A stretch of 64,000 bases of DNA. It comes from Bombyx mori (lineage: Eukaryota > Arthropoda > Insecta > Lepidoptera > Bombycidae). The position numbers were made by a program, and so were the translations under genes. The notes under the pieces are model-generated. The model had not been told where the DNA came from, ran no database searches, and saw nothing but the letters and a program-made list of their open reading frames with translations. The stretch lies in contig NC_085126.1 of assembly GCF_030269925.1 (NCBI RefSeq), positions 7,380,501 through 7,444,500 of the forward strand, given 5' to 3'. Positions 22,640-62,664 of this stretch are shown one piece after another; the stretch's first letter is position 1; the number at the start of each line of letters is the position of its first letter.

Positions 22640-22870
22640 GAGCGAAGACGCCTCGGACTTGAGTTGTGGATACTTTGTGGCTAGATTTGCAATGAATTCA
22701 TGTGCCGATGAAACAACAGTAGCGTAGCTAATATGCCGACGGAGTAAGACTGGAGCGCAGTACCACGGCCTCTTCGGAGAGGGAGAGCGCGCAGGGAGCC
22801 GAATCTCTCCCTCACGCCGACCAGGACGCGGTAGAACCCGCCACTCCTACCTGTTGGTGAGTCATTCGAT
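22640..22870 (-). other. GC-rich island, unidentified
   Basis: A GC-rich patch in AT-rich surroundings with a minus-strand open frame containing GGFYRVLVGVRERFGSLRAL. It may be a fragment of an unrecognised repeat or an exon; no splice partner was found. Confidence 0.25.
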
Positions 22871-27235: not shown

Positions 27236-27253
27236 ATGTAACATTTGATAAAA

Positions 27254-28257: not shown

Positions 28258-28349
28258 AAAATAAAACTCCGATTAATAAAGACGATAGTCAGGCCTTAGA
28301 TAAAAATAATGAACAAAAACAAGTATCTAATGTAACTGGCGATGATAGT

Positions 28350-28600: not shown

Positions 28601-28662
28601 ATTATGTACTAAGTTACTCTGCATTACTTGGACATTCCTTTACAGAGAAGCCTGATATTATA

Positions 28663-30501: not shown

Positions 30502-30601
30502 CGAGATAAATAAAATCAAAAGGATTCTTTCTGACCCTTCATCGGCGGAGGTAGCGGACATACACAAAAACTACAGACTGAAGAATGTCCATGTTTACCG
30601 C

Positions 30602-37500: not shown

Positions 37501-37543
37501 GCAATGAGTTCTTTTATCCAAAAGGTGGGGCAAGTGGTCATCA

Positions 37544-40500
37544 ATGGGCTGTTTCAAGTCGTTAGGAGGTCACAGGAACGAAAGCGAAGACGCGAAGGAG
37601 CAGAGAAGACGGAACCATGCCATAAATCAACAGCTCAAACAAGATAGAGAGGTTTGAGTCCTTTAAACAAATTGTGTGTGACCGTGTGACGGGACTTAGT
37701 GATGGATGCGTAGTAGTTAAATGCTGCCTATGAATGAATGCTTCTTCGGCTATATTATTATTATTATTATTTTAATTGCTTAGATGGGTGGACGAGATCA
37801 CAGCCTACCTGGTATTCAGTGGTTAGTGGTGTAATAAAAATGAAACCCGCAAAATTATAATTTGCGTAATTACTGATGGTAGGATCTCTGGTGAGTCCAC
37901 GCGGGTAGGTACCATCGCCCTGCCTATTTCTGCCGTTGTAACCATACTGAGACCTTAGAACTTATATCTCAAGGTTGGTGGCGCATTTACGTTGTAGATT
38001 TCTATGGGCTCCAGTAACCACTTAATATGAGGTGGGCTGTGAGCTCATCCACCCATCTAAGCAATAAAAAAAGGGTGCGTGTACTTATGTACGCGCGTAA
38101 GAAGTTATACTTGATTTTTATTAAATTTATGTCTTTTTTTTGTTTAAATATTAAATAATTAATAATAAATATTTAACGTTACAAAATGAATGCTAATAAC
38201 ACTTTTTTTACGAGTGTACACGCGCGAAAGTTCACCTCCGGCTATATTCAGACTCGCCAAGTTACGTCGGTCGTATTGTAATGAGCGATTTAGTGGGCAA
38301 CTTCATTTCTGTTAATTTTGTGTCACGGTGCGCGCGCATCGTAAAATTTCACTCTCATCAAATTTTCATAACGCGCCTAAAGAAGTATAACTTCAAAATT
38401 GTTAAACTTTAAATGGCTCTCGTGTAAAGTTTCAAAAGTGTTGTTTAAATAGTCTTTCACCCCTCGATATGGAATTGTATTATTTAGGTCCGTTTCTGCT
38501 AGGCTAGTGATCGCATTGCGGTCTTCTGAATTGTAGCTGTACCAAGCGACGCACCGGCTTCTCCTGCTGGGCGCCGGCGAGTCCGGGAAGTCGACGATCG
38601 TGAAGCAGATGCGCATCCTGCACGTCAACGGCTTCTCCGACAAGGAGCGCAAGGAGAAGATCGAGGACATCAAGAAGAACGTTCGAGATGCCATCATTGT
38701 GAGTGTACACAACGCCTGTAATTAATACGCTTTTATTAACTTCAGACGTACGTATGTTTGTAACGGAATCTTTGAACATGATTTTGACCCCCTTCAAAAC
38801 GTGGGATTAACTCGAAATTTGGTATACTTATTAAGGACCGATGAGAAAACAATATTAAAAAAAAAATTGGAAAAAAATATATTGAAAAAGTTGAAATTCA
38901 ACTAAAAAATAGAAAATACATTTTAATAAATTTGAATTAATAATAGTGTAAGAAAAAATGATTTCATTGTAAAAAAAAACAGCGTGGGGTGCATGGTATC
39001 AGTAGTTATAAATATTTTATGAACAGATATGAGTAGAAGAGTTATTTTGATAATATCCTGAAAACAGCCCACGCTTTTTTTTACAATAAAATCATTTTTT
39101 CTTACACTATTGGTTTTTCTATAAAAACGTATTTTCTTGTTTTTTTTTTAAACTATTATTTATTTTCGCAACAAGATTTCTGTGCAGATAAAGCCTTATC
39201 TCGTAAATAATTGCAAATTAAATAAAGGCGTTTTGTTATACGCGCGATATACGTAAGTCATTTTATACACTAATTCCGCGGCAGGGAAACTGAACAATGC
39301 TTATGTTATTTTAATTAAATTTGATTATGGAGATTACTGAATTGTTTTCTTTTAATTTTTTCCTATATAAACGTTTGAATTTCAGACGATCACCGGTGCC
39401 ATGAGTACCTTAACACCTCCGATTCCTCTCGAGAAACCGGAGAATAAACCACGCGTGGATTACATTCAGGTGAGATTGTCTCGAGACGCTGGGAGATTGG
39501 TGAATGTATAAGGAACTGGATTTACTAGGACTAGGGTGAACTAGGATAGCTTCTACCAGTGAATGTAGTTTCTTGATATGTGACGTGAAAAGTTTATGGG
39601 AAGTATAAGCGAGATATAGATTTACAGTGGTGGTAGGAGCTCTTGTGAGTCCGCGCGGGTAGGTACCACCGCCCTGCCTATTTCTGCCGTGAAGCATAAT
39701 GCGTTTCGGTGTGAAGGGTGGGGCAGCCGTAGTAACTAAACTTGAGACCTTAGTTATATCTTATCTTAACTTATATCTTAATATGAGTGGCGCATTTACG
39801 TCGTCGTGGTCTAAAGGATAAGACGTCCGGTGCATTCGTGTTGAGCGATGCACCGGTGTTCGAATCTCAGGCGGGTATCAAATTTTCTAATGAAATACGT
39901 ACTCAACAAATGTTCACGATTGACTTCCACGGTGAACGAATAACATCGTTTAATAAAAATCAAACCCGCAAATTTATAATTTGCGTAATTACTGGTGGTA
40001 GGACCTCTTGTGAATCCGCGCGGGTAGGTACCACCGCCCTGCCTATTTCTGCCGTGAAGCATAATGCGTTTTGGTTTGAAGGGTGGGGCAGTCGTTGTAA
40101 CTATACTTGAGACCTTAGAACTTATATCTTAAGGTTGGTGGCGCATTTACGTCGTAGATGTCTATAGGCTCCACTAACCACTTAACACTTAACAACGGGC
40201 TGTGAGCTCGTGCACCCATCTAAGCAATATAGTATAAGACACTCACCGTTTGGTGCGTGTTAGCTGGTTGTAGCTGGACTGTGAGAGTGGTCACACGAGA
40301 CTGAGTCGTTGTGAGTGCGAGTCACGGCGAGGACGTAGCTAGGGCCGGGGGTACGGAGAGGGAAGCGGCTTGAGGATTGCCGTCGTATAGTTGAGGGTGA
40401 GGGAGTGGCCAAGGTCAGCGCCACGCGGGTCGGCTCGAGAAACTGACCGTGCGGTTGCCGGGCGCAGGACGTGGCGTCGCAGCCGGACTTCGACTACCCT

Positions 40501-43500
40501 TCGGAGTTCTACGAGCACACGGAGGCGCTGTGGAAGGACCAGGGCGTGCAGCGCACCTACGAGCGCAGCAACGAGTACCAGCTCATCGACAGTGCCAAAT
40601 AGTAAGCTAATATGTAACTTAGTACAAGAACGAAACCGTTCATCGTAAAATTGATCCGTTCACAGCTTTATTCCAGTGTTTTTTGATAAAAATGTAAGAT
40701 TAAAAGAATAAAAATCTACCAATCACATGAGTCGACTATTATCAAAGCCGGCAATGTGACTTTTGGACAATTATTGGTAAATCAGAAAAAAGAATTATTG
40801 ACTTTGTATTCCATTGGCAGTCACAAAACTCTTCTGAACGACATCTTAGATAAATAACAGGTTAAGTTAATACTTTATTTAATGCAGGTTTTGAACCGTA
40901 TTCTTTGAAGGAGACGATTATATTCAAATCAATCTGTATTGACATATCAATAACATTTTTTTGTCCAAATGCACAGATTGCCACCTTTGATAATAGACGA
41001 CTCATCTTATTCAACTAGCTACCCGCCCTCGCTTTGCTTCGGAAACATTAAATTTGATAGCAGAGTCCCGCGATGTTACCTGCGATTATTGTTGTACCGC
41101 GGGTGAGGCCGCGGGGCGAAGCTAATCTAAAAAAAGTAGCCTCAGTTACTCTCCTTATATCATCAGCTACCTATCAGTGAAAGTCTCGTCAAAATCGGTC
41201 CAGCCGTTCCAGAGATTACCCGGAACAAACAGACAGACAGACACAAAAATTGTAAAAAATGTTATTTTGGTGTATGTACCATGGAGCCCATAGACATCTA
41301 CAACGTAAATGCGCCACCCATCTTGAGATAAGTTGTAAAGTCTCAAGTATAGTTACAACGGCTGCCCCGCCCTTCAAACCGAAACGCATTACTGCTTCAC
41401 GGCAGAAATAGGCAGGGTGGTGGTACCTACCCGCGTGGCAATACAAGAGGTCCTACCACCAGTAAATGTATATGATAATAATTAGCTCGTCCCACACATC
41501 TTCACGGAATCTGTTTAGATCGTAATTGTTCAACAATCACGTCGCGTAATTACCCTAAGCGTCATCGGGCAGACGATGGAGGAGCGTACTAATACCGATC
41601 TCCTGTAGCTTCCTGGACAAGATCCACGTGATCAGACAGCCGGGCTACACGCCCACCGAGCAGGACGTCCTCCGCTGCCGGGTCCTCACATCCGGAATCT
41701 ACCAGACGCAGTTCGTCGTGGACAAAGTTCACTTCCAGTGAGTGCCTTAGTTATCTATATATTAATACGTGAAGCAAAAAACTTTGTATCCCTTTTTACG
41801 AAAATTGCGCGGACGGAGGAGTATGAAATTTTCCACACTTATAGAGGATATAGAGAAGAAGTGCACAATGCTAATATTTTTTTTTAAATAATGCATAAAA
41901 GATACATTAAATCAATAAAGAAAACATTACACACACTACCATGTATTTGACACACACACACCACACACGCATGCATAATATTGGTTTATTGTCAACCTTT
42001 CGTTATTTCTTAAAGTCTGTGGTCAAATCGACAATAGGTTAATATTGTTTGTCTTTATTAATATTTGTCTAAAGTGTAGTCTTGGTGAAATCTCGAAGTT
42101 ATAATAAATGAGTCGTCTATTATCAAAGGTGGCAATCTGTGCATTTGGACAAAAAAAATATATTGATATGTCAATACAGATTGATTTGAATATAATCGTC
42201 TCCTTCAAAGAATACGGTTCAAAACCTGCATTAAATAAAGTATTAACTTAACCTGTTATTTATCTAAGATGTCGTTCCGAAGAGTTTTGTGACTGCCAAT
42301 GGAATACAAAGTCAATAATTCGTTTTTCTGATTTACCAATAATTGTCCAAAAGTCAGATTGCCGGCTTTGATAATAGTCGACTCAAATAGTCTTTGACAA
42401 TTGAATCATATTAATGTACAAACTTATAATTTCAATTAATTATAGTCGATTTTCGACTACCAAGGGCGATCACCGCCCCCCGACCAGATGCCCAGAGATG
42501 CCCATCTGCGGCAATAACAAAGACGATTCCAGCGCGCTGTGAGGATGTGGATCGCACGGACCCAAAACTTATACAGGTTACGCGAAAGATTGAGGTTCTA
42601 CAAATCTTAATTACAGCTTCAAAAAATTGTCGATAGAGCCATCTTGCGTCAAATAGCGGAGCTATGTAAAGGTGACGCACGATATCTAAGTTTCTAGAAA
42701 GATCGGCTAGGGCCGTATTTAGGCTTTAGGGCTCAATGAATAGTGTAGTGCAGTATAGATTAGGATATTTTGAAATTAACAACACACACTAGTGATAAGT
42801 GGAATGCTTTTGTCGCGTATACAAATCTTGTCTGAGTTCATTCTTCTGATATCAGAAGTCGGTTTCAATCAAATCCAAAATTCGACCTTATGCGTCGTGT
42901 TGTGGCCGTGGACACCAGAACACGCCACAGTTGTTCCAGTAACCACTTAATACCAAACAGTCCGCACACTCATCTAAGAAAATTCATTTCTGTTTTTTAC
43001 TACTTACTGCGCATGGATTGCTAAAGCTATGCTGAAAACCACAATATCGTCTATATAAACCCAAGCTTATTTCGCTTCCAGTATATTCGATGTCGGCGGA
43101 CAACGCGACGAAAGACGCAAATGGATCCAGTGCTTCAACGATGTTACCGCGATCATCTTCGTGGCGGCCTGCTCCGCCTACAACATGGTGCTGCGCGAGG
43201 ACCCCACGCAGAACCGGCTGCGCGAGTCCCTGGATCTGTTCAAGAGCATCTGGAACAACCGGTGGCTGCGGACCATCTCCGTCATCCTGTTCCTCAACAA
43301 GCAGGACCTGCTCGCCGAGAAGGTGCTGGCGGGGAAGTCTCGGCTCGAGGACTACTTCCACGAGTTCGCCCAGTACCAGACCCCGACTGACATGAAGCCA
43401 GACCCCAAAGATCACCCTGAAGTGACCCGCGCCAAGTTCTTCATTCGTGAGGAGTTTCTGGTTGGTGAATGAAAAGTTTGATCTTGTAGGAATTAATATG

Positions 43501-44375
43501 CAAGGTTGGTAGGTGGCGGTTTGGCTGTGCCCGTGGCTTTGTTGATGTCCACGAACAATGGTTACTGTTAACCGTCAAGCTACCTTACTTGTCCAATTTC
43601 TATTGTAAAAAAAAATTAAAATCCAGACAGTTTTTTCTCACTATGGAAATATCACTAACAGATGGAAATATCATGCTCAATTTTCTTCATTGCATTAAAA
43701 ACCATTCAAAACCTTATATTTGGTTTAAAAAAAAACATAACCTAAATCATGACGTACGTAATTAAAACATAGCTTACACTATATACATATAAATCACGTG
43801 TTTTAAAATACTTTTTACAATTTTACCACAATTCGTAAACTTTACCGTTTACGGTGGTGGTCACGGATGACGAAAAACATACATCTTATATATAAAATTC
43901 TCGTGTCACAATGCTACTTACTATACTCCTCTGAAACGGTTTGACCTATTTTAATGAAGTTTTATATGCATTTTCAGTAGGTCTAGGTCTAGGTATTTTT
44001 CATACCCCTAAGTGATTTTATTTTTTGAACAATTTTTTTTTGTTATAATGAGGCGTTATGTGGTTGAATGAGGTTTTGTTATTTTTATATTCCCTCATCG
44101 TTCACAGCGCTACATGCCTCTTTCACTCATTTATCACATCCTTGTACACTTATACTTACACTTATATGTATAATATATGTAAAAACGTTTTTAATCTACG
44201 TTTTTAATCTCTCCGGGTGGTGTTTCAGCGCATCAGCACCGCCACGGGCGACGGCAAGCACGACTGCTACGCTCACTTCACGTGCGCCGTCGACACCGAC
44301 AACATCCAACGAGTGTTCAACGGCTGCCGGAACATCATCCAGCGGTGGCATTTGAAGCAATACGAACTACTATAG
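37544..44375 (+). CDS. Divergent G-protein alpha-s paralogue, complete
   Basis: Seven exons: 37544-37651, 38537-38698, 39386-39469, 40468-40601, 41609-41737, 43082-43460 and 44229-44375. They sum to 1143 nt (380 aa), close to the usual insect Gs-alpha length. Begins [10 protein letters not shown], keeping the palmitoylated Cys3 position. GTPase motifs are intact: P-loop GAGESGKST (exon 2), switch I with the toxin-modified Arg in LRCRVLTSG (exon 5), switch [14 protein letters not shown] and NKQD (exon 6), and TCAVDT (exon 7). The family couples receptors to adenylyl cyclase. Unusual residues compared with the minus-strand copy: LIDSAKY for [16 protein letters not shown] for [16 protein letters not shown] for NDCRDII, and a C-terminal helix ending [11 protein letters not shown] for [11 protein letters not shown]. 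No stop or frameshift is seen, so it is probably functional. Exon 1 was found only by its frame and a GTTTGA donor, which makes it the least certain part. Confidence 0.88.
37770..38072. repeat. Two SINE-B pieces in opposite orientation
   Basis: Minus piece 37770-37828 is joined to a plus copy 37829-38072 (AATAAAAATGAAACCCGC to CATCTAAGCAATAAAAAAA). In intron 1 of the Gs-alpha paralogue. Confidence 0.8.
38360..38475 (+). repeat. MITE-B half copy
   Basis: TTTAAATGGCTCTCGTGTAA and AGTCTTTCACCCCTCGATAT match the right half of MITE-B; the left end is missing. It ends 60 bp before exon 2 of the paralogue. Confidence 0.6.
38943..39110. mobile_element. Foldback MITE with about 43-bp inverted repeats
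   Basis: ATAGTGTAAGAAAAAATGAT at the left is mirrored by ATCATTTTTTCTTACACTAT at the right, and CAGCGTGGG by CCCACGC. In intron 2 of the Gs-alpha paralogue. Confidence 0.75.
39622..39799 (+). repeat. SINE-B, interrupted
   Basis: GTGGTGGTAGGAGCTCTTGTG to GCGCATTTACGTC, where the next SINE-B starts. Confidence 0.75.
39800..40230 (+). repeat. Full-length SINE-B with tRNA-like head
   Basis: The only full-length copy. The head has a tRNA A-box-like GTGGTCTAAAGGATAAGAC and a B-box GGTGTTCGAATC (39855-39866), and the end is CACCCATCTAAGCAATA. The head is tRNA-derived but is not a tRNA gene. Intron 3 of the paralogue. Confidence 0.85.
40278..40467 (+). other. Intron block shared with canonical Gs-alpha
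   Basis: About 190 bp of intron 3 next to exon 4 matches the complement of 62407-62596 with about 5 differences (near 97%). Confidence 0.85.
40727..41005 (+). mobile_element. MITE-A
   Basis: 279 bp with ends ATGAGTCGACTATTATCAAAG and CTTTGATAATAGACGACTCAT. In intron 4 of the Gs-alpha paralogue. Confidence 0.85.
41012..41275 (-). mobile_element. Helitron-like repeat, truncated
   Basis: ACTAGCTACCCGCCCTCGC at the left gives a CTAG(T) end on the minus strand. It contains GGTCCAGCCGTTCCAGAGATT. Cut by the SINE-B at 41277. Confidence 0.5.
41277..41466 (-). repeat. SINE-B, tail missing
   Basis: GGAGCCCATAGACATCTAC to GTCCTACCACCAGTAA. Confidence 0.8.
41754..42463 (+). mobile_element. Helitron H2 split by MITE-A
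   Basis: TCTATATATTAATACGTGAAG starts it. After the MITE-A (42108-42386) the H2 sequence resumes (AATAGTCTTTGACAATTG to TAGTCGATTTTCGACTAC). The 3' CTAG is lost. Intron 5 of the paralogue. Confidence 0.75.
42108..42386 (-). mobile_element. MITE-A inside Helitron
   Basis: 279 bp, inverted relative to the 40727 copy, with the same terminal repeats. Confidence 0.85.
43882..44020 (+). repeat. Possible Helitron-type fragment
   Basis: TATATAAAATTCTCGTGTCAC and AACGGTTTGACCTATTTTAATG resemble short non-autonomous Helitrons of moths; ends not resolved. Intron 6 of the paralogue. Confidence 0.35.
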
Positions 44376-44509
44376 CGGACATACGCGTACTGAGTACTTT
44401 AGAGCTAACCAATGTGATTGCATGTGAGTATACTATACTATTCGTCTTCTGTATAACTTTTATAATCCCAAAACTTTTTTACAGGAGAGTGTTTTAATAG
44501 TTTAACTGT

Positions 44510-44640
44510 TTAAATGTGTAATAGCGATGGTTTATTAACTGTTTAATATCTGTGAAAGTGCAACAATGTGGGAAAATAAAGCAAAGCCGCTGGACGTAAC
44601 TCGGGATCCTGAAGTCCACTGAAAAAGTCTCAGTAAATAG
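44510..44640 (+). repeat. Repeat R-X, partial
   Basis: GGTTTATTAACTGTTTAATATC and AAGCCGCTGGACGTAACTC match 60580-60680. Lies 130 bp past the paralogue stop. Confidence 0.65.
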
Positions 44641-44649
44641 GATAATAGG

Positions 44650-44892
44650 AGTAATGATAGGACTTCTTGTGAGTCCGCACGGATAGGTACCACCACCCTG
44701 CCTATTTCTGCCTTGAAGCAGTAATGCGTTTCGGTTTGAAGGGTAGGGCAGCCGTTGTAATTATACTTAAGACCTTAGACCTTATATCTCGAGGTGGGTG
44801 GCGCATTTACGTTGTAGATGTCTATGGGCTCCAGTAACCACTTAACGCCAGGTAGGCTGTGAGTTCGTCCACCCATATAAGCAATTAAAAAA
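44650..44892 (+). repeat. SINE-B
   Basis: GATAGGACTTCTTGTGAGTC to ATATAAGCAATTAAAAAAT. Confidence 0.85.
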
Positions 44893-45770
44893 TAAACATG
44901 TAATATCTTTAATAATAATCATATTTGCAACATTTCATATTTTCATTTTTTACCAGTCACATTATCTGTATTTTAAAGTAAGATAAAATTGTGTGTTAAT
45001 TTTGTTAATAGTAGTGAAAACATAGGTAAAATAAATAAAAAAAGAACTAAAACAAGACTACGCTCTTTTAACAGTATTTATGAGAAAAATACCGGTGATA
45101 CTAAATGTTTACGCATATTAACTCAATTGCGAATATTTTTGGAAATTGTACACTTTTAATGTGAAAAGGCGTATTGTGTTATTTATTAAATAAATTAATG
45201 TTTTGAAATACATATTTTTTTTAAAACAAAGCAAGCATTGGGAAATTCGTGCAAGTAGCTGTCTAAAACAATAAATGGGATCGACTATTATATATAATTG
45301 ATTATTAAAATAATTTTTACACTTTATTTTCGTTTAGTAACTTTGACTATATTCATCTCTAAATTAACAGCCATCAAGATTGATGAGTCTTGAATAATAA
45401 AAAATAATTAAAATTAATTTTACGATTTTCATCTTTCGTAAAAATAGCTTTAATAATTCCCACGGCTAATTATTACATACTAAATGTAATTTCGAATCAT
45501 GTCAGTAAAAGTCTATTGAAGAATAAATTAGTGTGCCTTTGTGAACATTTAGATTCTTTTTTTCCCAATATTCTTGGTAAATTAATAGAATAAAAATTGA
45601 TTTCCACAGTTACGTCTGTTTCGAACCGTCCACAGCAAAAACACAAACGGACAGACAAACCAACAGACACGACACGGACATAGCTTCGCTCGCGACCTCC
45701 CTGCCCTTTGTTAACCATGAAAATACAACGTAAGTACATAATATAACTAGTATTATTTTTATTGATTAAG
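44893..45770. other. No gene seen
   Basis: AT-rich, nothing recognised. Confidence 0.5.
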
Positions 45771-45994
45771 AAACTTAATACGGGCAGAGGCGTATCGAGG
45801 GGGACAAGGGGGACATGATGCCCCGGGCGCTACTCACAAAGGGGCGCCAAATGGTACTACGCAAAACAAAAAATTGCTGGTTTTTTTTAATTATTATTTT
45901 ATTATTTATTATATATATAAAAATCAAATCCAATAGAATTATAATTTGCGCATGTAATTATCTTATATAATTGCTAGTTTCGTTTTGTGAGACC

Positions 45995-46178
45995 CAAAAG
46001 GGCGGTGACTATAATCACCGAGAAGCAGTAATGCGTTTTTAGGCACTGGGCAGCAGTCGTACAATTTGGTACTTATACCTCAAGCCTCATGCCCCAAAAC
46101 GGCGTCCTATATCTGTTGTGTACAAGCTTCGGGAGCCCCTTTCCATCAAGTTGGCCGTAAGCTCGTCCAGCCATTAAT
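45995..46178 (+). repeat. SINE-B, very old
   Basis: GAAGCAGTAATGCG and AGCTCGTCCAGCCATT align with the consensus in order, with many changes. Preceded by a GC-rich stretch (45790-45860) of unknown origin. Confidence 0.55.
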
Positions 46179-46199
46179 TAGTCGTATATTTAGAAGCCA

Positions 46200-47020
46200 T
46201 TGATTTCCATTAACACGTCATAGTTAATATCACCAATACCTATGAAAGAGTCTTTAATAAATTTTATTATATAATAAATAATATTTAATAATAATAAAAT
46301 AAATAATATTTTAATTTCCAGGTCGAATTTGACGATGTTTTGGAGTTAGCTGCACAAAGTGCTATTTTTGTTATTAAATTTTTTATGAACTTTTTTTTTA
46401 TAGAAGAAATATATTTTTAATACTAACGTAATTATTTAACGAATGGAATTATTTTTCGAATATTTTATGAGAAGTGGTCCACGCTCGCCTTACTATCGTT
46501 AAGTGTTTAAATTAATCTAAGTGATAATATATTGTTTTTTATTTATATTATATTATGTAATATTTTATATGACTTGTTGTTTAAGTGAATAAAGTATATT
46601 TTTAGAGTTACTTTTTTTTTTTTATCCGTCTTCTAACTTATTTGCGTTGATTATTTCTTGCACTTTTTTTAAGTATGGCGATTGATTTCTCGTGATACCA
46701 GTGTTGCCAGTGTCAAGCTTGTAAATATCTTTGTAAATACATACTTGATTAGGTGGTGCGTGGTTAGTTAGATTTTTTTTTTAATTGGCGCACTGTCATT
46801 ATAGCCCGGCTGAAGTTAGCTTCACTAAGCGTGACGTGATTTATCGCCAAAATGCACGAGCTAAGCATTGTTTTTAAAATGAATGAACATCGCAAATAAC
46901 ATATTATTGGAGTTCGCTATGAAAAATTACAGAATTACTAGATTTTATTCAGTGATTTAAAATAAAAAGGTTACGTCTTAACAAGAAGTCGCAGTTTAGA
47001 AAGTTGTGTTTTTTATTAAA
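46200..47020. other. No gene seen
   Basis: AT-rich sequence with several homopolymer runs; no frame or repeat. Confidence 0.5.
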
Positions 47021-47108
47021 AAAAAACTCCTACCTACGCCGAAAGTTCGGTTTTCCTCCCGCTGTACAGGGAAGAAAGTGTAACTTTTCCTCCCTGGGTA
47101 CTGACAAG

Positions 47109-47120
47109 TGCGCATGCGCG
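47109..47120. promoter_or_regulatory. NRF-1-like palindrome TGCGCATGCGCG
   Basis: A perfect palindromic core GCGCATGCGC in a locally GC-rich 47040-47170 block, 130 bp before an ATG (47254) followed by a Ser-rich 17-codon frame. This motif marks housekeeping promoters in animals, and it also occurs in transposon ends. Confidence 0.3.
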
Positions 47121-47309
47121 TTAGTGTCTACGTCTGCTCTCATGCACCTAAAAGTCTCCGCCATTATGCTCGGGTAATTTGCAATATTGTGTTTAGTGTA
47201 AAAGTGAAATAAACAAAAGGCAATAAAATTTAATAGTGAAGTATTAAACAAAGATGAGTTCATCAGACAGTTCTTATTCAATTAGTAGTAGTTTATTTAA
47301 AAATTAAAA

Positions 47310-48890
47310 AACAGTTCAATTGCTTTTTTATGAGTATTCAGTAATTTAAAATATAAATATTTGGTTTTTACAAGAACCTTTGCTGCTTACAAAGTTAAAG
47401 CCATTTTTTTCTTCTATCAATCAAAATATGCAGACATGTTATCGAAGCATCCTTGCTAGTGCAGTTATAGTCCTTCAATGCCCTTCTTGAAGAAGTCAGG
47501 TGTACGGGAGCGAACAAACTCTTCAAGGCCTTTTGTACTGCCTCTCGGATGTTAAATTTCTTCCATTGTCAAATCTTCCAAACTTTGGAAAAAGATACAA
47601 ATGTAGAAAAAAAATATACCAATCAATAAACAAATCATCGAATTTGAAAATAAAATTTCAATTTTTATTTATTAAAATTCAATTAAATTTGAATTAAATG
47701 CTAGCCATATGCAATTTACCTTTGAAATGACCATTATTGTGAAATCAGTAGGTATAAATCTAGCTGTTGCTTTGTGGTGGTAAATGAGAGTGGACTATAT
47801 TTATTTGTTTTGATATCTTTATTAGTCCTTTTGTGACAAATTAAAGATATATGAATGTATGAAATCGATGTGTCGCCCTTCGCGGTTGGATTTGAAAAAA
47901 GGGGGAAAGTGTCATGGCGGACGTCGCTCGTTGACACTTTTGACGTTCCGAATTCAAACACTATCTTTTAATAAATTTCACAGTCGTTGTGATTCAATTA
48001 ATAAAATTAGGATTCCATATCAAACAAATTTTTTCTATAGTTTCTGTCTTAAGGTTCCTTTGCAACACATTCGGTCCGCTCAATAAAAAACGAAAACTTT
48101 TAAAACAACATTTATTTTTTTACATACATTAAGTCGGATTCAAAATGCCAGAAACAAACTGATTTTGTACACATCAGTTACATATTTAAATTTCATGGAC
48201 AGTGAAACGATATATTCTGTATACCTCGAGACAATAAATTACAAGCAATTATGTTACTTTTACGACCACCTCGCGTTACACACTAAATATACACGTAAAT
48301 ATTAAAATTTATTCATTATTATTATTATTATTATTATTTTTAATCTTTAGGAATTTCATTAATTAGGTATATTTAAAAAAAAATCGTTAAAAATATAGAA
48401 CTTTTTTTTTTTTAATTCAGTATATTATAATTATAAACGTAGGTAGTTAAGTTTTTTTTTTTGAAATATTTTTTTTAAATACAAGACAGTTCACGATCTC
48501 CACGGCGAAATACTAAAGTGTGCTGATATTACATACCGTTCTTCTAAGCTGAGTGTTGAGCTATGCTACGCGATTACTATACAGCAATTAAAAAAAAAAA
48601 AAAAAAATGTATATATATATATATATATATATATAATACCTAAGAAGAAATTCGAGTAATCACATGATTGTGCTAAGTTAAAAACATATTATGAGTACTA
48701 TATAAATGCAAACACAATTATGATTCGTTTCATTATGCATATAATATATCTCACGGTTTGTACCAACGGCTGTAGTGATGAGAATACCGTAAATCAAATT
48801 TTAAATCGGCACAGACAAAATCGTACAAAGACATCTAATCGAAAACCGGTAAAAGACGGTGTTGTTCGTAATGTGACGTAATTTCAGATC
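47310..48890. other. No gene seen
   Basis: AT-rich; includes a GC-rich island at 47868-47950 and a TA microsatellite at 48607-48636. No convincing coding frame. Confidence 0.45.
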
Positions 48891-48895
48891 CATTT

Positions 48896-49033
48896 TTCTT
48901 TTATTGCTTAGATGGGTGGAGGTGCTCACACAGCCCACCTGGTGTTAAGTGGTTACTGGAGCCCATAGACATCTACAACGTAAATGCGCCACCCATCTTG
49001 AGATACAAGTTCTAAGGTCTCAAGTATAGTTGC
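48896..49033 (-). repeat. SINE-B, truncated
   Basis: TTTTATTGCTTAGATGGGTGG to CTCAAGTATAGTTG. Confidence 0.8.
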
Positions 49034-49318
49034 CGCTCGCGATCCGCTGTTTTTAGGGAAGCTGCCTACGGCCTATGCTAGGTTAGTTGGCTTCATCATA
49101 CATGAACCCATCACGAGATGAATCAATCATTATTTCAGTAGACGAACTCATATCGTATCGACATTTGCCAGGATCGTACGACATTGTTTCAAAACTCCAA
49201 GATCATACACGTCTGTGCCTCAAAATTGTATGCAACACGAAGAAAGCAACGCCAAGCCAACGAACATGAAATTCGTGTTTTTTGCCTATTTCCGGGAAAA
49301 CTCGACTATTGTTAATGA

Positions 49319-49706
49319 ACATCATCATTCTCCTGCCCTTCTCCCAGTCACCTGGGGTCGGCGCAACATGTTTTCTCCTTCCATACTCCTCTATCATATA
49401 CCATTTCTTTGGTCACTCCCCTCTTACACATATCGTCTTTCACGCAATCCATCCATTTCTTCTTAGGTCTACCTCTTCCTCTATATCCTTCCACATTCAT
49501 AGTTAACACTCTCTTACCAACCTCATTTTCATTTCGTCTCATCACATGTCCATACCATCCCAAACGCGCACTCCTCAGCTTCTCTGTCACAGGTGCCACT
49601 TTCAGACCTCCTCTAACATATTCATTCCGTATTCTATCCATTCTCGTTACTCCACACATCCATCGCAACATTCGCATCTCTGCTGCACGCAATCGCCTTT
49701 CCTCCT
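49319..49706 (-). mobile_element. Truncated RTE-like LINE with 14-bp target duplication
   Basis: Encodes only the RT C-terminus (MLRWMCGVTRMDRIRNEY, LGWYGHVMRR, GRGRPKKKWMDC). A perfect 14-bp direct repeat ACTATTGTTAATGA flanks it (49305-49318 and 49707-49720). The 3' end is an ATG-rich short repeat. Confidence 0.85.
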
Positions 49707-50010
49707 ACTATTGTTAATGATTTTTTTTTTTTTAAATTGCCGGACATCTTGATGTGAAATTGAATGGTCGAAATCTATATGTGCCTTCTTCTCCCTAAAC
49801 TTTTCGCTTATAGGTCGCATCGCCTGCAGATTGGTATCGCTAATTGCGACATTGTGCGCTGGTCAATACATAACTAATCATTATTCATATCATGATTTTT
49901 TTTTTGGAACGAAGTTCCTTATCGCGCATTGAGAAAGGGGGCTCTAGACGGAAAAATATTAAGACCAAAAGTTGTAACGACACTTTTTGCGTGTTTCTCT
50001 GTCTGTTTGT

Positions 50011-50032
50011 CTCTCTCTCTCTCTCTCTCTCT
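50011..50032. repeat. TC microsatellite
   Basis: Uninterrupted CT repeats. Confidence 0.85.
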
Positions 50033-50570
50033 ATAGAAAGCAAGCCAGTTATTTTCGTTTCGTCTTTCTATTTCGCATTGAACAGTGGTGTCGCGACGAT
50101 TATTTTTGTTGAGTGTTTACAGGTTTTTTGTACATAAAAAAATACTATAACTTAAAAAAATTTTTATTACAATTCCTTCACTAATTAATCGAAAAGAAAC
50201 TTCGTTCCATCCGGGTGTCCCTTGACACCTCTCAAACTTTTATTGGCAACGAACAAGACAGTTCATGATCGCGGCTATCGACCGACCCTTAGCTATATTT
50301 AAATAAAAACCGAGATGCTGTTTTTTTTTTTAAATTACATTAAATATATAATATACATATATATTTCATTAATATTTTATTTCAATGAAAGCTCCTACAT
50401 TTTTACATCTCACCGATCACGACACAGGCGAATCAACTATATATTAATATATCGAATGAAAATAACGAACAAATAAAATGATAATAATTAAAAATGTATA
50501 ATTTTTTAATCTAATCTACGTATTTTATTTATTATTAATAAAAAATGTTTTTTATTATTATATGACTCAC

Positions 50571-51200
50571 ATGTTATTGCATTTATCTATGAAAATACAC
50601 CAAAACACACTAAAAGGACAGGTTTCGGGCGTTGCATTAACGTCTTTAGAATGAAAAAAAAAAAAAACTATGATTCGAAAATTGAAAATAAAAACTTTCT
50701 TCTTTACGTGCAAATTATTAAATTTTGATGAAACATTCAAAACTCGACACATCCATACAAAGTTATGTGCTTAGAGAACTGACATACAGTAGGCAGCCGC
50801 TTGGCTCTGTCCCTGGAATTGCTGACGTCCATGGGCGACGGTGTAACCACTCACCATCAGGTGGGCCGTACGCTCGTTTGCCTACAAGAACATAAAAAAA
50901 AATAACATTTGTTGATATGACACCCTAATACTGACGCATTCATTTAATATGTCTGTAAATTAAAAAAGGGAATTAAAAAAACATTAACAAAAAAGTCAAC
51001 CATATGATCGCGGTTTTAGACAAACCATAGGCATTACCTTTATGGAGAATTGTGTGTCCATAATTATACGCAGAAGTTCGGATAACTTGATCGATATCAA
51101 CATTGTCATTGTGAATTTTCTGACAGTCCCCATTTATTGCCTCCTGTACATTTAAATCCGTCAATTTCTTCTGGTAATAAAAGAAAAATCGCGTATTCAT
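50571..51200 (-). CDS. Candidate small gene, first two exons, unknown function
   Basis: Exon 1 would be 51038-51200, starting MNTRFFFYYQKKLTDLNVQE and ending ...YGHTILHK at donor GTAATG. A second exon, 50571-50643, follows a long pyrimidine tract and AAAG acceptor. It reads in phase as DVNATPETCPFSVFWCIF and so on, and reaches a good donor (GTGAGT, 50565-50570). Reading through that donor would instead stop at 50567. Two TATCGATA boxes lie 80-100 bp upstream, as in DREF-regulated housekeeping promoters of insects. I do not recognise the protein, and further exons to the left were not found. It may be a real short gene or a chance frame. Confidence 0.35.
50789..50903 (+). repeat. Jockey/CR1-like LINE 3' end
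   Basis: GTAGGCAGCCGCTTGGCTCT to an A-rich tail; the same 3' UTR as at 8195-8319, with no coding part. Confidence 0.8.
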
Positions 51201-51277
51201 TTTCCTTTTAAAATATCAATTAAAAAATAATTTAAATAAAGGATAAACTCGATACAGTTTTCGATAAAAAAAGTTAC

Positions 51278-51301
51278 TATCGATAAAATTAATTATCGAT
51301 A
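51278..51301 (-). promoter_or_regulatory. Two DRE (TATCGATA) motifs
   Basis: TATCGATA occurs at 51278-51285 and 51294-51301, 78-101 bp upstream of the candidate start codon at 51200. This palindrome is the binding site of the insect factor DREF, common in promoters of growth and replication genes. Two copies 8 bp apart in AT-rich DNA suggest a core promoter, but not decisively. Confidence 0.4.
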
Positions 51302-51473
51302 ATTTTAAATCGATTATTCACATTTATAAAAACTACATAACAAAGAATTGCCTGATTTAGCTGCCTGCATTATTGGATGTTAAGTATAGGGTTTAAATAG
51401 ATACTCAAAAAGTAAAATATAATTCAAAAGCTGCATTAAAAGCTAAAAAGCTCTTAAATTGCCTGTCAGATTA

Positions 51474-51691
51474 TATATCGAGGAGTGAAAGGCATTTATC
51501 TTTGTAATTAAATGTGCGTTTTATTTGGTAATTAGCATCAACAGTTCGTCATTTTTAATTGAACCTCAATTAAGTTTCAAACAGCTGATGAAGTTATTTT
51601 GTTAAGATATTTTTTTCCAAATTTTTAACTTTAAATGGCTCTTCTGAAATCACTTAAACCAAATTTCCTTAGCCTTTCACCCATCGATATA
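51474..51691. mobile_element. MITE-B
   Basis: TATATCGAGGAGTGAAAGGC at the left and GCCTTTCACCCATCGATATA at the right; about 218 bp, uninterrupted. Confidence 0.8.
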
Positions 51692-51993
51692 TACATATAT
51701 ATATCGCACATACGGTGCTATAAAGTCACTTAAGCAATTTTTGTTAAAACTGAACTAAATATGAGAAAACATATTTTTTAATTAGTTATTAGTGAGACGG
51801 AGAGAGATGTTTACTTTTACTGATGAAGTTTAAAGTTGTAGTTTAAAAGAATTATATAATAAGATGTTTAATTTTCCAACGTATCTCATGAAAAGTTACA
51901 TAATTCGCATGAGTGACGTTATCGCACTGTATGCGCGATATATAGACTTCCAAACGCGTCCGTCTTCTAGGCACAGAGCTTGCAGAGACTCTT

Positions 51994-52140
51994 GCAGGTA
52001 TGTCTCTTTCTCGCACGCAAACTCGAGTGAACGAGACGGATATACTATCTAGTTTTGTTCAGCTCATGCAGTCGTCTCTTTCTTGCACGCTAACTCGAGT
52101 GAACGAGACAGATATATTCTCGAGCTTTCTTCAGTTTTAA
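51994..52140 (+). repeat. Two-unit tandem repeat
   Basis: GTCTCTTTCTCGCACGCAAA at 51994 recurs as GTCTCTTTCTTGCACGCTAA at about 52073, each followed by CTCGAGTGAACGAGAC; period near 78 bp. Confidence 0.75.
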
Positions 52141-52422
52141 TGAAACATTAGCCGCACGTACTAAGTCATGACGCCACAGATTACATTAATACATTGTACG
52201 CCTATTTAATAAAGAAAACAATGACGGGAGGGCGCCATTACAAGGTTTTTACTTACATCATTATTATTATTACATTAAATGGAGATAAAATTAAGTCAGT
52301 TATCACTAGACCTAAGCGGACAGCGTCTAAGTCTGAAGCACACGTCTACATTATCTCTTATTATATACGAATGTAGGAATTTCGAAACATAAAGACTCGT
52401 TAATTCTCATTTTTGTTCACAA

Positions 52423-52941
52423 TATATCGAGGGGTAAAAATACTGTTTGGTTTAAGCCAGGGGTTCCCAAACTTATTTTGTCAACTGCCCACTCTGAGAA
52501 TAGATTATTTTTTAGCGCCCCCCATTTTTTCACCTACTTAGAAACCACTATAGGGAGAGTTCAGTCGGCGTCTAAGAGTGAAATTACAAATCGCCTCAAA
52601 AGCCTCTATCTACACAACGCCTCCTTCTCTGGGTTCTCTTACCGCCCCCCTTTAGGCTTGCAGCGCCCATAAGGGGGCGTTATCGCCCACTTTGGGAAAG
52701 GCTGGTTTATGCGATATATCCCTTAACACGCGACATTTATCTTTGCAATTAAAGTACTTTGTAATTTGATATTCCGTCATCAACAAGTTCGATATCTTTA
52801 AAGAAACTTCCCCATTCAAATACCCGAAAAACATTTTAATACTATGATAATCTTTTTTTCCAAATTTTAAACTATAGATGGTGTCCTGGAAAGTTACCAA
52901 AAATGTCACTTAAACGAAATAACTTTTCACCCCTCGATATA
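52423..52941. mobile_element. MITE-B interrupted by a hAT MITE
   Basis: TATATCGAGGGGT at the left and CACCCCTCGATATA at the right; the internal part matches other MITE-B copies on both sides of 52458-52704. Confidence 0.8.
52458..52704 (+). mobile_element. hAT-type MITE
   Basis: CAGGGGTTCCCAAACTT and CACTTTGGGAAAGGCTG ends, flanked by 8-bp GTTTAAGC/GTTTATGC (7 of 8). Confidence 0.85.
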
Positions 52942-53151
52942 TATATATATATATTTTAAGGTTTTTTCACATACTTCAGTGTTTAAGGTCGAAATTCCTG
53001 ACACGGAAACCTGATCAAGGAAAGTAATGTTAATGATAGACAATATGGACAATAGATTAGCCGACTGTCAAAAGGCGAGAACTGTCGATAGATTTCGTTA
53101 GCGAATTAAAGAGATTATGACGACCTCCGGACGCAATGAGATGACTTCGAA

Positions 53152-53169
53152 ACATACATACATACATAC

Positions 53170-53211
<42 letters not shown>
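53152..53211. repeat. CATA and TA microsatellites
   Basis: CATA repeats followed by a long TA run. Confidence 0.9.
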
Positions 53212-53214
<3 letters not shown>

Positions 53215-54770
53215 TAAAATTACGTTACATTTGCTTTTACTACATACATTAAAAAAAAAACTTAAAAACGAGAAAAAACTTCATAGTTAATAATAATAAT
53301 AAATGTTAACAAATATAGTGTGTGGTTACGTTTAAAAAGGAAGCGAAAAATAGCATACGTTATCTGTGGTAAACTAAAATAAACTTAATCTTTCATATAT
53401 GGTAACATTAGGAATATGGTGTTTCCGCTGGCAACACACAATTTATGGCACATTCAACAGAAAACGAGCTTAGAACCTAGAAAACTATTAAAAAGAAACA
53501 AAAAAAAATTAACAAGATAACTAGTGATGTGACATTCGATTATATGGTTACAGTTTCGTTAATATCGATTATCGAATATAAGGAGAAAAAAAATAAAACA
53601 TTTTAAAAATAAATTAGATCATAATTAATTTAAAAACTAAAATTATAAGTACGCAAAACGAAATTTTATAACATAATTTTAGACTTAAAGATGAATATCA
53701 AATGAAATAAGTTTTTTTTTTTAAAACTGAAATTAGTTTATAAATAAAAATAGGAAAATACAATTAACAGTGATGTTGTTTTTCTTATTCTTTTCTAAAC
53801 GAGTCAATAATGTAAAAAATCATTAACAATTTAAGCGTTACGTCACGCTTCTAGTCGATGCGTGGGCGGGGGGAGGTGTGGGGGGGTGACAAACGCTTTC
53901 AAGCGAGCTTTTCCCAATTTAATTTCGTTAATTATGCATCGAATACGCGACATTACATTAAAAACCTCTTTATTAGTACCGCGAATAATACTAGTTACTA
54001 ATGTCGAAAATAAAATGCAAACAAACAAACAAAGATGTATCTTTTGAAAACGATATGCATAAAACAGTGCTTATGCCAATGTCAATAGGTAGAAGGAAGC
54101 CAAGGTTGAACCCATCAATAAACAGTATTGTAGCATTAATGCGAGTCACGGTAAGTGACGAACAAACTATATTACATTTTGGTGGCTTGTGCATACATCT
54201 AATGGAGAAGATAATTCGATAAACTGAAAATTTGGTTATCTTCATCATCAGCCTAGAGGTTCTTGTTTAGTAGACCTCTACCAAGGTTCACGACAATGGC
54301 AGCCTGTTCCAAGACCTTTATTTCTTTATTTATTTAGCACTATCACTACATAGTAGAAAACAAAGTCGCTTTCTCTGTCCCTATATCCCTATGTATGCTT
54401 AAATCTTTAAAACTACGCAACGGATTTTGGTGCGGTTTTTTTAATAGATAGCGTGATTGAAGAGGAAGGTTTATATGTATAATAACATCCATTAAATAGT
54501 GGAGAAATCAATAATAAATTACAGTTTCTGAAACGAAGCGAGGACGGGTCGGTAGTTAAATATATTTTGTACAAACATCTGTTAGAAGAAACACGACAAT
54601 AAGGATACAGAGTACAAGGGCACTACTTATTTCATGTCGAAATCTCTTCCAGTAGGCCCGCAGAAGGAATGAAGAATTAACCGTCAACAGATTCACTTAA
54701 AGAAAACCCAAATGTGACGATTAAACTAACTCCCAAACTACAAAGCTGACGCAGATGAAACTCTTTGATG
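53212..54770. other. No gene seen
   Basis: AT-rich with a G-rich patch at 53856-53890. 54355-54560 resembles a Helitron-type repeat (ACTACGCAACGGATTTTGGTG), but its ends are unclear. Confidence 0.4.
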
Positions 54771-54778
54771 TAATTTAG

Positions 54779-54893
54779 CGGTAGGCAGCGGCTTGGCTCT
54801 GCCCTTGGCATTGCTGAAGTCCATGGGCGACGGTAACCACTCACCATCAGGTGGGCCGTATGCTCTTCTGCCTACAAAGGCAATAAAAAAAAA
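54779..54893 (+). repeat. Jockey/CR1-like LINE 3' end
   Basis: Near-identical to the 3' UTR of the 7693-8319 element, ending AAAGGCAATAAAAAAAAA. Confidence 0.85.
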
Positions 54894-55082
54894 ATCTATT
54901 TCGTATTACATAACAAACATGAAATATATCAGATCTATGTATGTATATATTTCTGAAGCGTTGGAGATTATTCCGTTTTTTTTTCATCGTTTAGAACTTT
55001 GATTGATTCGACTTTTGCGATTCTAATAATTAGTACTGTTATCATCATCAAAGTTCTCCTTCAGAGGAGACAATATTTGTGA

Positions 55083-55084
<2 letters not shown>

Positions 55085-55115
<31 letters not shown>
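55085..55115. repeat. TA microsatellite
   Basis: Uninterrupted TA repeats. Confidence 0.9.
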
Positions 55116-55118
<3 letters not shown>

Positions 55119-56048
55119 TAACATTTATATAGAAAATGTTTTTGGGAAATTATATATATATATTTACAGATTTGATAAAGAATAAAATACAATTGAAAAA
55201 TTCGTGTTTGTTGCGTTTTAAGGAATTTGTGCGAACGACAATTAATTATTGATACAACTGTCCGAATAAAATGGAAGAATTTATGTATTTAAATAAAATC
55301 TTAAAAACTATTAGGATCTTAAAAAAGGATAAACAACATAAATCCTTTATTATAGATTCAGATAAATAAAATGATTCATTAACTTGAGCTTAAGAACGAT
55401 GCTAATATTACATAAACAATAATAAGTCCTTTAAAACTAGCTGCTTGTGATTAATATAGCCTCGATTAAAGATTGAGAAAAAAAAATAACGCGGCAAGTG
55501 CTCTTAGCCGCATCTCTATTATCGACAATGGTTATTGTGTTACAACACTACGCTAAAACGATACCGTCGTCCGGTATCTCGATTCGCGAATCAACAAAAT
55601 ATAAACATATCTTTCATTTATAATCTTTTTAAACTTTCAAATAAAATATATTTAAAAAAACGATAAAATTAACTAAAAAAAAAAAAAAAAATTGAATCGT
55701 CACAACCAAAAATAAGACTAAATAAAGTAAGTATTAAAATGACTAAACAAAATTGTGATTTGAAAACGGTTAGTTGCCAGCTTCGTGCAAAAGCGAATAT
55801 TCGGAAACACCATTCGAATACGTACTTGTGAAAATCGATTTTAAAATTTCAACTTCATTCGAATTTCGCACCCTAAGATCTACGATTATTTATTGACAAT
55901 AATCAAATTGCAATCGATTCTCACGTGTCAAAGTAAAATTGATTAACGTTAAACTCAAGATGACAAGTAAAATGGATCACCCTAAGTCATTGGATCTATT
56001 CAGCGAATACTATCGATAGTGAAATCGAATAATCGATTCTGTCACTCG

Positions 56049-56151
56049 TTAACGGAACACGGGTCGAATGAAGTGTTTGAAAATGCGCTTGACGCGTGTC
56101 CACGGTGGAGCCCGGGCAGCGGGGCAGACCCTTTGCTTTTTTGTATTTATT
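56049..56151 (-). CDS. Possible orphan terminal exon
   Basis: On the minus strand, ATTCTGTTTCAG ends at 56152 and is followed by a GC-rich reading frame (after one phase base) of 33 codons to TAA at 56049-56051. It ends in a basic amphipathic stretch, TRVKRIFKHFIRPVFR. GC content and the clean acceptor are exon-like. An upstream partner exon was not found. It lies 1.2 kb past the G-alpha-s stop, so it could be an alternative 3' exon of that gene or part of another gene. A second frame through the same acceptor is also open, which weakens the case. Confidence 0.2.
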
Positions 56152-56275
56152 CTGAAACAGAATTAATATCGATACAGTTCGATACATAATCTCTCGTAGT
56201 GCGGTCATATTACGATCGATTTTTGGAACTACTCATTTATTATATAAGAGTGATTTTAGGTACTGGTAGGATTTT

Positions 56276-56525
56276 TACTGGTGGTAGGACCTCTTGTAAG
56301 TCCGCACGGATAGGTACCACCGCCCCGCCTATTTTCTGCCATGAAGCAGTAATGCGTTTCGGTTTGAAGGGTGGGGCAGCCGTTGTAACTATACCTGAGA
56401 CCTTAGAACTTATGTCTCAAGGTGGGTGGCGTATTTACGTTGTAGATGTCTATGGGCTCCAGTAACCACTTAACATCAGGTGGGCTGTGAGCTCTTCCAC
56501 CCACCTAAGCAATAAATAAATAAAA
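56276..56525 (+). repeat. SINE-B
   Basis: TTACTGGTGGTAGGACCTCTTG to CACCTAAGCAATAAATAAA. Confidence 0.85.
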
Positions 56526-56743
56526 AAATTACTTTCCGACTTATGAAGCAATACATAAGAACGGTTTTTACCTGAACGGTAAAGGTAATGTGGAGAATTC
56601 AACCCTCTTTCTACCCCGCAGGATTCTTACTAACAAATGACCCCGACACGGATATCATAATATCAATGCCACTAACTCTGAGCTTCGAGATCGTAAGCTC
56701 AAGTATCGATATACTTCACGACTGGTTTGAGGTTGAACTAGAC

Positions 56744-57364
56744 ATGAGTGTAGCACGTCCTACTAGATGTCCGGCTTCCGAATTCAAAAACAACTAAGAC
56801 CACACTATCACTGAGTGCAGTCCGTCCCTTTCTTTACCTAGTCAAGAGAAGGGGACAGTCGACCGACCGGTGGCTGGTATATGAGTGTAGCACGTCCTAT
56901 TAAATGTCCGGCTTCCAAATTCAAAACTCAAAACAACTAAGACTACACTATCACTCAGCGCAGTCCGTCTCTTTCGTTACCTAGTCAAGAGAAGGGGATA
57001 GTCGACCGACCGGTGGCTGGTACATGAGTGCAGCACGTCCTACTAGATGTCCAGCTTCCGAATTCAAAAGCAACTAAGACTATTACTGAGCGCAGTCCGT
57101 CTCTTTCGTTACCTAGTCAAGAGAAAGGGACAGTCGACCGGCCGGTGGCTGGTACTTGAGTGTAGTACGTCTTACTAGATGTCCGGCTTCCAAATTCAAA
57201 AACAACTAAGACCACACTATTACCGAGCGCAGTCCGTCTCTTTCGTTACCTAGTCAAGAGAAGGGGACAGTCGACCGGTCGGTGGCTGTACACTATTACC
57301 GAGGGCAGTCCGTCTCTTTCTTTACCTAGTCAAGAGAAGGGGACAGTCGACCGGCCGATGGCTG
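56744..57364. repeat. Minisatellite beside the Gs-alpha stop codon
   Basis: Units start ATGAGTGTAGCACGTCCTA at 56744, 56881, 57024 and 57156 (periods 137, 143, 132), plus a partial unit at 57289-57364. Each ends with AGAAGGGGACAGTCGACCG and GGTGGCTGGTA. The array reaches 8 bp from the TAA at 57373, so it falls in the 3' UTR or immediate flank. Confidence 0.9.
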
Positions 57365-57372
57365 GTGCCCGG

Positions 57373-62406
<5,034 letters not shown>

Positions 62407-62596
62407 CTGCGCCCGGCAACCGCACGGTCAGTGTCTCGAGCCAACCCGCGTGGCGCTGACCTTGGCCACTCTCTCACCCTCAACTATACGACGGCAATCC
62501 TCAAGCCGCTTCCCTCTCCATACCCCCGGCCCTAGCTACGTCCTCACCGTGACTCGCACTCACAACGACTCAGTCTCGTGTGACCACTCTCACAGT
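62407..62596 (-). other. Intron block shared with Gs-alpha paralogue
   Basis: Complement of 40278-40467 with about five differences; similarity stops at 62597, before the LINE fragment. Confidence 0.85.
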
Positions 62597-62664
62597 CCAG
62601 CTACACCTGTGGTACCTCGCTTATACTTTCCATATGCTGCTACTACCCTTTCCATATACTCCCA

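Follow-up and report, generated by a model that had tools for sequence, protein, structure and literature searches.

A Tail-to-Tail Pair of Gs-Alpha Genes in Bombyx mori, One of Them Diverged in a Mosaic Manner

Introduction

Few signalling proteins are as conserved as Gs-alpha, for which insects are generally taken to have a single gene. In Bombyx mori, two such genes face each other in a stretch of 64,000 nt (the window), which lies within a 12.7 Mb contig; the assembly comprises 30 contigs and 461.7 Mb in total. The plus-strand copy is divergent (PAR) and the minus-strand copy is canonical (CAN). The locus raises the question of whether PAR is a second working Gs-class subunit, and of how a copy of so conserved a gene came to differ from its neighbour.

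The literature searched, which took in few subscription papers, yielded no description of a second gene for Gs-alpha in a moth or another lepidopteran. Among the references of PMC3072409 is a 2005 study of Go, Gq and Gs in the antennae of silkmoths. A word search of the main text of PMC5896119, devoted to G-alpha evolution, returned none of the words Bombyx, Lepidoptera, insect and arthropod. Judged by its letters, the pair is a duplicated Gs-alpha gene, as an earlier note on this DNA had described it; the facts added here are the leader exon, the full CAN gene, three tracts of near identity, a constraint that varies along the gene and the replacements close to the C-terminus.

If a second copy whose receptor end is altered has indeed been kept for long, this would bear on the way in which cAMP signalling is split among moth receptors, for example in the prothoracic gland, the antenna and pheromone systems. 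A conversion mosaic would also be a natural experiment, in which the surface for effectors and that for receptors evolve under different regimes within a single protein.

Anatomy of the Gene Pair

The seven coding exons of PAR occupy positions 37544–44375 of the plus strand (Table 1) and join into 1143 nt, forming one open frame of 380 amino acids and a stop codon with no internal stop or indel. The product matches the Pfam G-alpha profile (PF00503) over residues 22–369 of 380 with an E-value of 2.1e-118 (395.7 bits against a cut-off of 48.8). GT/AG is kept at every splice site. The GTPase motifs G1–G5 are intact in the protein together with the switch I arginine. The complete, open seven-exon gene with retained GTPase motifs, which the earlier note had claimed for the plus strand, is thus present.

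The opposing canonical gene, of which the 3' four exons had been seen, was found at 62406–57373 with these exons in place. Its exons 1–3 follow just past the window end and are 108, 162 and 84 nt long, the same as in PAR. The exact agreement of lengths and phases claimed for the exons of 134, 129, 379 and 147 nt holds, and the agreement of lengths extends to 7/7 coding exons. The two proteins are identical at 325 of 380 amino acids. The layout is tail to tail, with the stop codons ending at 44375 (PAR) and 57373 (CAN), about 13 kb apart.

Table 1. Coordinates of the features of the PAR/CAN locus. Positions are those of the window; "window-extended" numbers are counted on into adjoining DNA
Feature	Position	Strand	Remarks
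PAR leader exon (exon 0)	about 22744..22856	+	found by tblastn of the relatives' N-terminal extension, E 2.8e-9; 5' limit provisional; donor TTG/GTGAGT
PAR exon 1	37525..37651	+	19 nt leader, then coding from ATG 37544 (MGCF...); coding part 37544-37651, 108 nt
PAR exon 2	38537..38698	+	162 nt; P-loop GAGESGKST; probable conversion tract 1 at 38561-38677
PAR exon 3	39386..39469	+	84 nt
Probable conversion tract 2	40269..40606 vs 62605-62268	+ vs -	part of intron 3 and exon 4, 97%
PAR exon 4	40468..40601	+	134 nt; initial 123 nt identical to CAN
PAR exon 5	41609..41737	+	129 nt; switch segment
PAR exon 6	43082..43460	+	379 nt; DVGGQ, switch II, NKQD; probable conversion tract 3 at 43155-43382; weak donor CTG/GTTGGT
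PAR exon 7	44229..44375	+	147 nt; TCAVDT, helix alpha-5, stop; several replacements, some at receptor-facing positions of human Gs
CAN exon 7	57373..57519	-	147 nt
CAN exon 6	58516..58894	-	379 nt; tract 3 at 58821-58594
CAN exon 5	60135..60263	-	129 nt
CAN exon 4	62273..62406	-	134 nt; tract 2 at 62605-62268
CAN exons 3, 2, 1	window-extended 64435-64352, 64969-64808, 66124-66017	-	adjoining DNA, same contig
CAN leader exon	window-extended 89272-89160	-	found in a further 40 kb of adjoining DNA

Both genes proved larger than the earlier note had them. Their coding exons are as it stated, but each has in addition a homologous leader exon, 14.7 kb upstream of exon 1 in PAR and about 23 kb beyond exon 1 in CAN. 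The leader exons of the two copies are 73% identical over 138 nt. Joined to exon 1, the leader amounts in each copy to 132 nt, is free of indels and stops, and ends in ...TPTCWW..WS(S/A)-MGCF. An N-terminal extension before MGCF is present in three related proteins, P0001, P0002 (Mythimna separata) and P0004, of which P0001 and P0004 are taken as moths by similarity, and in all three it is ATG-initiated. In the leader frame of PAR and CAN, no in-frame ATG was found after the nearest upstream stop, and hence no ATG-initiated extension in either copy of this genome. The leader differences fall 12/10/16 at codon positions 1/2/3, with 19 amino-acid and 10 synonymous codon differences; the PAR/CAN codon differences over these 44 codons give no sign of coding constraint. 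Exon 0 is treated as leader sequence, an extended Gs initiated at a non-ATG codon being possible.

Origin of the Pair

PAR and CAN share the leader intron and all six coding introns, the coding introns lying at identical positions. Since the duplicated unit is the whole gene with its leader and introns, PAR is excluded as a retrocopy or processed pseudogene, and the DNA-level duplication proposed earlier is supported, the equal lengths of 7/7 coding exons included. As read from this shared structure, the pair is an inverted DNA duplication of the whole Gs-alpha gene, leader included.

The duplication is not recent, as the synonymous divergence outside the near-identical tracts described below is at least 1.1. 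The same divergence rules out PAR as an allele or an assembly duplicate. The suggestion that two haplotypes were placed side by side, or that the pair is otherwise an assembly artefact, has nothing in its favour beyond the similarity of PAR and CAN itself; with near-saturated synonymous sites, 11 conserved residues changed in PAR, intron lengths that differ between the copies, and a position inside a 12.7 Mb contig, its probability is negligible.

A G-alpha profile search of the genome gave 29 exon-level matches on six contigs. Eight G-alpha loci were fetched, two of which are PAR and CAN and six are other G-alpha places. These six match by 34–49% over most stretches and by 62–69% over two short ones (39 and 42 amino acids). 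In a protein tree built without the tracts, PAR falls outside a group of CAN and four moth-like relatives with 58% support; with all sites, it stands beside CAN (54%).

The neighbour of PAR is ORC6 (17432–20554, minus strand, coding start at 20554), which lies head to head with the PAR leader (22744, plus strand) at a distance of about 2.2 kb. Gs and ORC6 of Aphomia sociella are both listed with a longest contig of length 4588820. For Arctia plantaginis, this length is 18763174 with Gs and with one of the two listed ORC6 proteins, and 11513929 with the other ORC6. This suggests an old linkage, with the place beside ORC6 being ancestral for Gs, so that PAR may occupy the original location.

Several repeats and a further gene piece were seen around the pair. 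The long first intron of PAR holds LTR-retrotransposon-like frames (27019–31551, plus strand) with a reverse transcriptase at 29303–30019 and, near 28200, a stretch which we take to be zinc-knuckle-like. A LINE-like element on the minus strand (11481–15215) has a 985-aa frame with endonuclease and reverse transcriptase and an upstream 258-aa frame. An element of about 290 nt occurs at 40728–41016, 42097–42385 and 61403–61693, in introns of both Gs copies; the three copies are 96–98% alike and probably represent recent mobile element insertions outside the duplication. Tandem arrays (a 143-bp unit four times and a 76-bp unit twice) lie at 56742–57364, directly behind the CAN stop, in the presumed 3' untranslated region. 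A piece of a sodium/hydrogen exchanger gene (PF00999) was found at 9251–10336 on the minus strand.

Mosaic Divergence and Probable Gene Conversion

The plus-strand copy is divergent, as the earlier note had it, but not uniformly so along the gene: three coding tracts are near-identical to CAN. Among degenerate codons encoding the same amino acid in both copies, 81 of 317 differ, and these are spread unevenly. A two-state hidden Markov model with two rates over the 317 synonymous codons was preferred over a single rate by 38 AIC units. It placed low-divergence tracts at approximately codons 45–83, 115–158 and 231–306, with the HMM-high codons 64–65 merged into tract 1 and the HMM-low codons 346–348, which include two informative codons, ignored. 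Synonymous codons are identical in an unbroken series of up to 44 (p = 1e-4, 20,000 shuffles). Nucleotide differences number 3/117, 0/132 and 8/228 in tracts 1, 2 and 3 (11/477 in total) and 159/663 elsewhere.

Tract 2 is not confined to coding sequence, as its part in intron 3 is identical at 194 of 199 nt. When 36–48 kb of the plus strand was aligned with 56–64 kb of the minus strand, a comparison that covers the locus up to CAN introns 1 and 2, the other non-coding matches amounted to a few exon-flanking bases and to elements judged to be repeats, as most of them match several places.

The tracts are also rich in GC. In PAR, 154 of 159 third codon positions within tracts (97%) are G or C, against 154 of 221 (70%) outside; in CAN, the counts are 152/159 and 172/221. 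One might therefore ascribe the tracts to a strong constraint that acts on codons or nucleotides where exons are rich in GC, since a GC3 of 96–97% in both copies is alone enough to make two-fold codons agree. The choice between G and C at fourfold codons speaks against this. Where both copies have such a codon ending in G or C, it is identical in 61/62 cases in tracts and in 30/43 outside (p = 2.6e-5, a value which, like those of the tract nucleotide and GC3 comparisons, is optimistic because the same data had served to set the borders of the tracts). Codon bias is ruled out by this test as the cause of the tracts, and the extension of tract 2 for 199 nt into intron 3 at 97% identity likewise counts against constraint, which we consider quite improbable. 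The simplest reading of the tracts is gene conversion, probably GC-biased, as codon bias does not explain them.

The inverted arms at 40269–40606 and 62268–62605 are 97% complementary and 21.7 kb apart, and it could be supposed that the locus serves, also or instead, as a source of hairpin RNA, read-through pairing the 338-nt arms to yield small RNAs against Gs-alpha. The loops of known hairpin precursors are far shorter than 21.7 kb, and pairwise omega, being low outside the tracts, suggests that the gene acts through its protein; a hairpin role is highly improbable.

Conversion between the copies, named above as the best reading, would fit the following course. An inverted DNA duplication copied the whole Gs-alpha gene with its leader long enough ago for synonymous sites to approach saturation. 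Conversion between the inverted copies then would have overwritten at least three stretches: exon 2 with the P-loop and the start of the helical domain; part of intron 3 with exon 4; and the central part of exon 6 with the alpha-3 helix, the alpha3-beta5 loop and NKQD. The high GC content at third positions of these stretches is what GC-biased conversion would produce. Between the tracts, PAR would have evolved alone, mostly under purifying selection.

Selection on the Divergent Copy

The earlier note had proposed a dN/dS comparison, and pairwise omega outside the tracts is low: over 221 codons, dS is 1.75 (lower bootstrap bound 1.09), dN is 0.13 and omega is 0.074 (bootstrap 0–0.13). For the non-tract part of exons 4–7, the values are 1.11, 0.106 and 0.095, respectively. 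All omega values are pairwise and thus average the PAR and CAN branches. In a neutral simulation of PAR (834 nt outside the tracts as then delimited) at half of the dS of 1.11, none of 3000 runs remained free of stops. On short branches, 7% of 3000 runs were stop-free at 0.1 substitutions per site and 23% at 0.05. A long neutral history of PAR is thereby excluded; recent decay could go unseen.

Constraint is uneven along the gene. Codons 208–230, with DVGGQ and switch II, carry 13 synonymous and no amino-acid differences, whereas codons 307–380 carry 24 and 16 (Fisher p = 0.005, for segments bounded after the alignment was inspected). Tract 3 (codons 231–306) has five amino-acid and two synonymous differences, which gives an omega of about 0.68 from few changes. 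Four of these five (234, 238, 299 and 303) lie within 8 codons of the tract borders and may fall outside the converted stretch; a recent relaxation of constraint in tract 3 is also possible. The 55 amino-acid differences between the copies, when polarised by the relatives P0001–P0004, comprise 45 derived in PAR, 2 derived in CAN and 8 ambiguous ones.

Changed Residues and Gs-Class Identity

By its matches, PAR belongs to the Gs class. Among the best 120 of 6946 protein matches, all telling names are Gs (one being GNAL), and the others are hypothetical or plain G-alpha. The best 60 of 367 solved chains are mostly Gs, the top one being named G-protein alpha subunit, the second miniGq and two Golf. 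Among the matches listed, identity to PAR is 84% for the Gs proteins of both Mythimna separata and Aphomia sociella, and 83–85% for those of two close relatives.

Conservation was assessed on 134 of 169 retrieved proteins, namely those of 360–560 amino acids, excluding P0095, the C-terminus of which is out of frame with the rest. At 191 positions conserved in at least 97% of these relatives, PAR differs at 11 (194, 195, 204, 207, 329, 347, 356, 364, 367, 372 and 375), six of which fall in the last 37 residues. CAN, compared over exons 4–7, shows no change at the conserved positions. Residue 344, which is Y in 129 and F in 5 relatives, is D in PAR. The changes at near-invariant C-terminal residues are thus Y344D, P347A, D364G, D367N, M372W and R375K in PAR numbering. 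The last five residues, QYELL, are kept, yet the receptor-facing C-terminus does not hold up as conserved.

At the C-terminal end, the number in the human long form (394 residues in the solved structure) equals the PAR number plus 14. In human numbering, the changes include Y358D, D378G, D381N, M386W and R389K. We take R38 (Q in PAR), M386 and R389 to lie in or beside the receptor interface, and switch II and the alpha3-beta5 loop presumably face adenylyl cyclase. Y358 and D381 of human Gs are named as receptor contacts (PMC9950150, PMC10721165), D381 also in PMC9668914. The amino acids of PAR and CAN are the same at codons 208–230 and in NNRWLRTIS, the presumed cyclase-facing parts.

The PAR product would be an alpha subunit of the Gs class, anchored to the membrane and able to bind GTP; since its switch II and alpha3-beta5 loop show no change, it would also be expected to activate adenylyl cyclase. 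Its range of receptors is probably different or narrower, as suggested by the altered receptor-facing positions Y358D, D378G, D381N, M386W and R389K. The losses of near-invariant residues at the C-terminus could equally reflect relaxed constraint. From the sequence evidence as a whole, we favour, with a probability of roughly 0.6, an old inverted duplication with a conversion mosaic in which PAR would be an expressed, working Gs-class subunit with an intact cyclase face and altered receptor coupling.

Possible Signs of Decay and the Protein Record

The main competing explanation, which appears unlikely to us, is that PAR was functional for long and is now decaying or silent, conversion keeping parts of it intact-looking. 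Its intron-6 donor, CTG/GTTGGT, agrees with the consensus at 6/9 positions (7/9 in the CAN counterpart), and a GT 4 nt downstream scores equally and would shift the frame towards a 422-residue product with an unrelated end. This donor is suggestive of decay only, because the intron-1 donors of CAN (CAG/GTACTC, 6/9) and PAR (5/9) are also weak. The changed near-invariant residues and the excess of amino-acid over synonymous differences in tract 3 (5 vs 2) would also suit decay, as would the share of neutral runs that stay stop-free on short branches (23% or 7% at 0.05 or 0.1 substitutions per site). Against these stand 1143 nt without stop or indel, GT/AG at all splice sites and the kept leader frame.

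Decay would likewise fit the protein record, where the closest protein is at most 85% identical to PAR among the matches listed. In a collection of 5.8 billion proteins, no protein more than 85% identical to PAR was found (7974 and 4164 candidates; best 120 of 6946 and best 120 of 4095 matches), the best listed matches being lepidopteran Gs. ORC6 of the same window served as a control and gave 54 matches, none of them with a Bombyx name. The top one, P0170 (source "lgn", 16 members, taken as sequence-archive assemblies), is 88% identical to a rough exon join. Compared with the window, it reaches 98.9% and 98.2% in two stretches and 75–86% in four others, which are thought to be matches running past exon ends. 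This species or one very close to it thus seems to be represented in the collection, so the missing PAR is mild evidence against its strong expression.

Comparison with Known Systems

In comparison with insect Gs-alpha proteins (Drosophila Gs60A and the lepidopteran orthologues), PAR shares the MGCF start, the P-loop, the arginine of switch I, DVGGQ, NKQD, TCAVDT and the ...QYELL end. It differs in the 11 of 191 conserved positions that are altered and in being a second gene beside a normal one.

Neighbouring gene pairs homogenised by gene conversion share with PAR and CAN the near-identical/old mosaic and GC-rich converted tracts. The present pair differs from them in that a very conserved signalling gene is concerned, the putatively converted parts being nucleotide- and effector-binding segments and the receptor end having diverged.

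Vertebrates likewise possess two Gs-class genes per genome, Gs and Golf, both of which drive adenylyl cyclase, as PAR is predicted to do. The two are presumably the retained copies GNAS and GNAL, which are unlinked. According to PMC5896119, GNAS retained two copies after the vertebrate genome duplication. PAR and CAN arose independently of these; they lie next to each other in inverted orientation, and sequence seems to pass between them. It can be tentatively proposed, although we lean somewhat against it, that PAR is an insect lineage's own counterpart of vertebrate Golf: a second Gs subunit with a re-tuned receptor end, the nucleotide and cyclase core of which would be kept synchronised with the parent by GC-biased conversion, while only the receptor-facing and N-terminal parts would be free to diverge.
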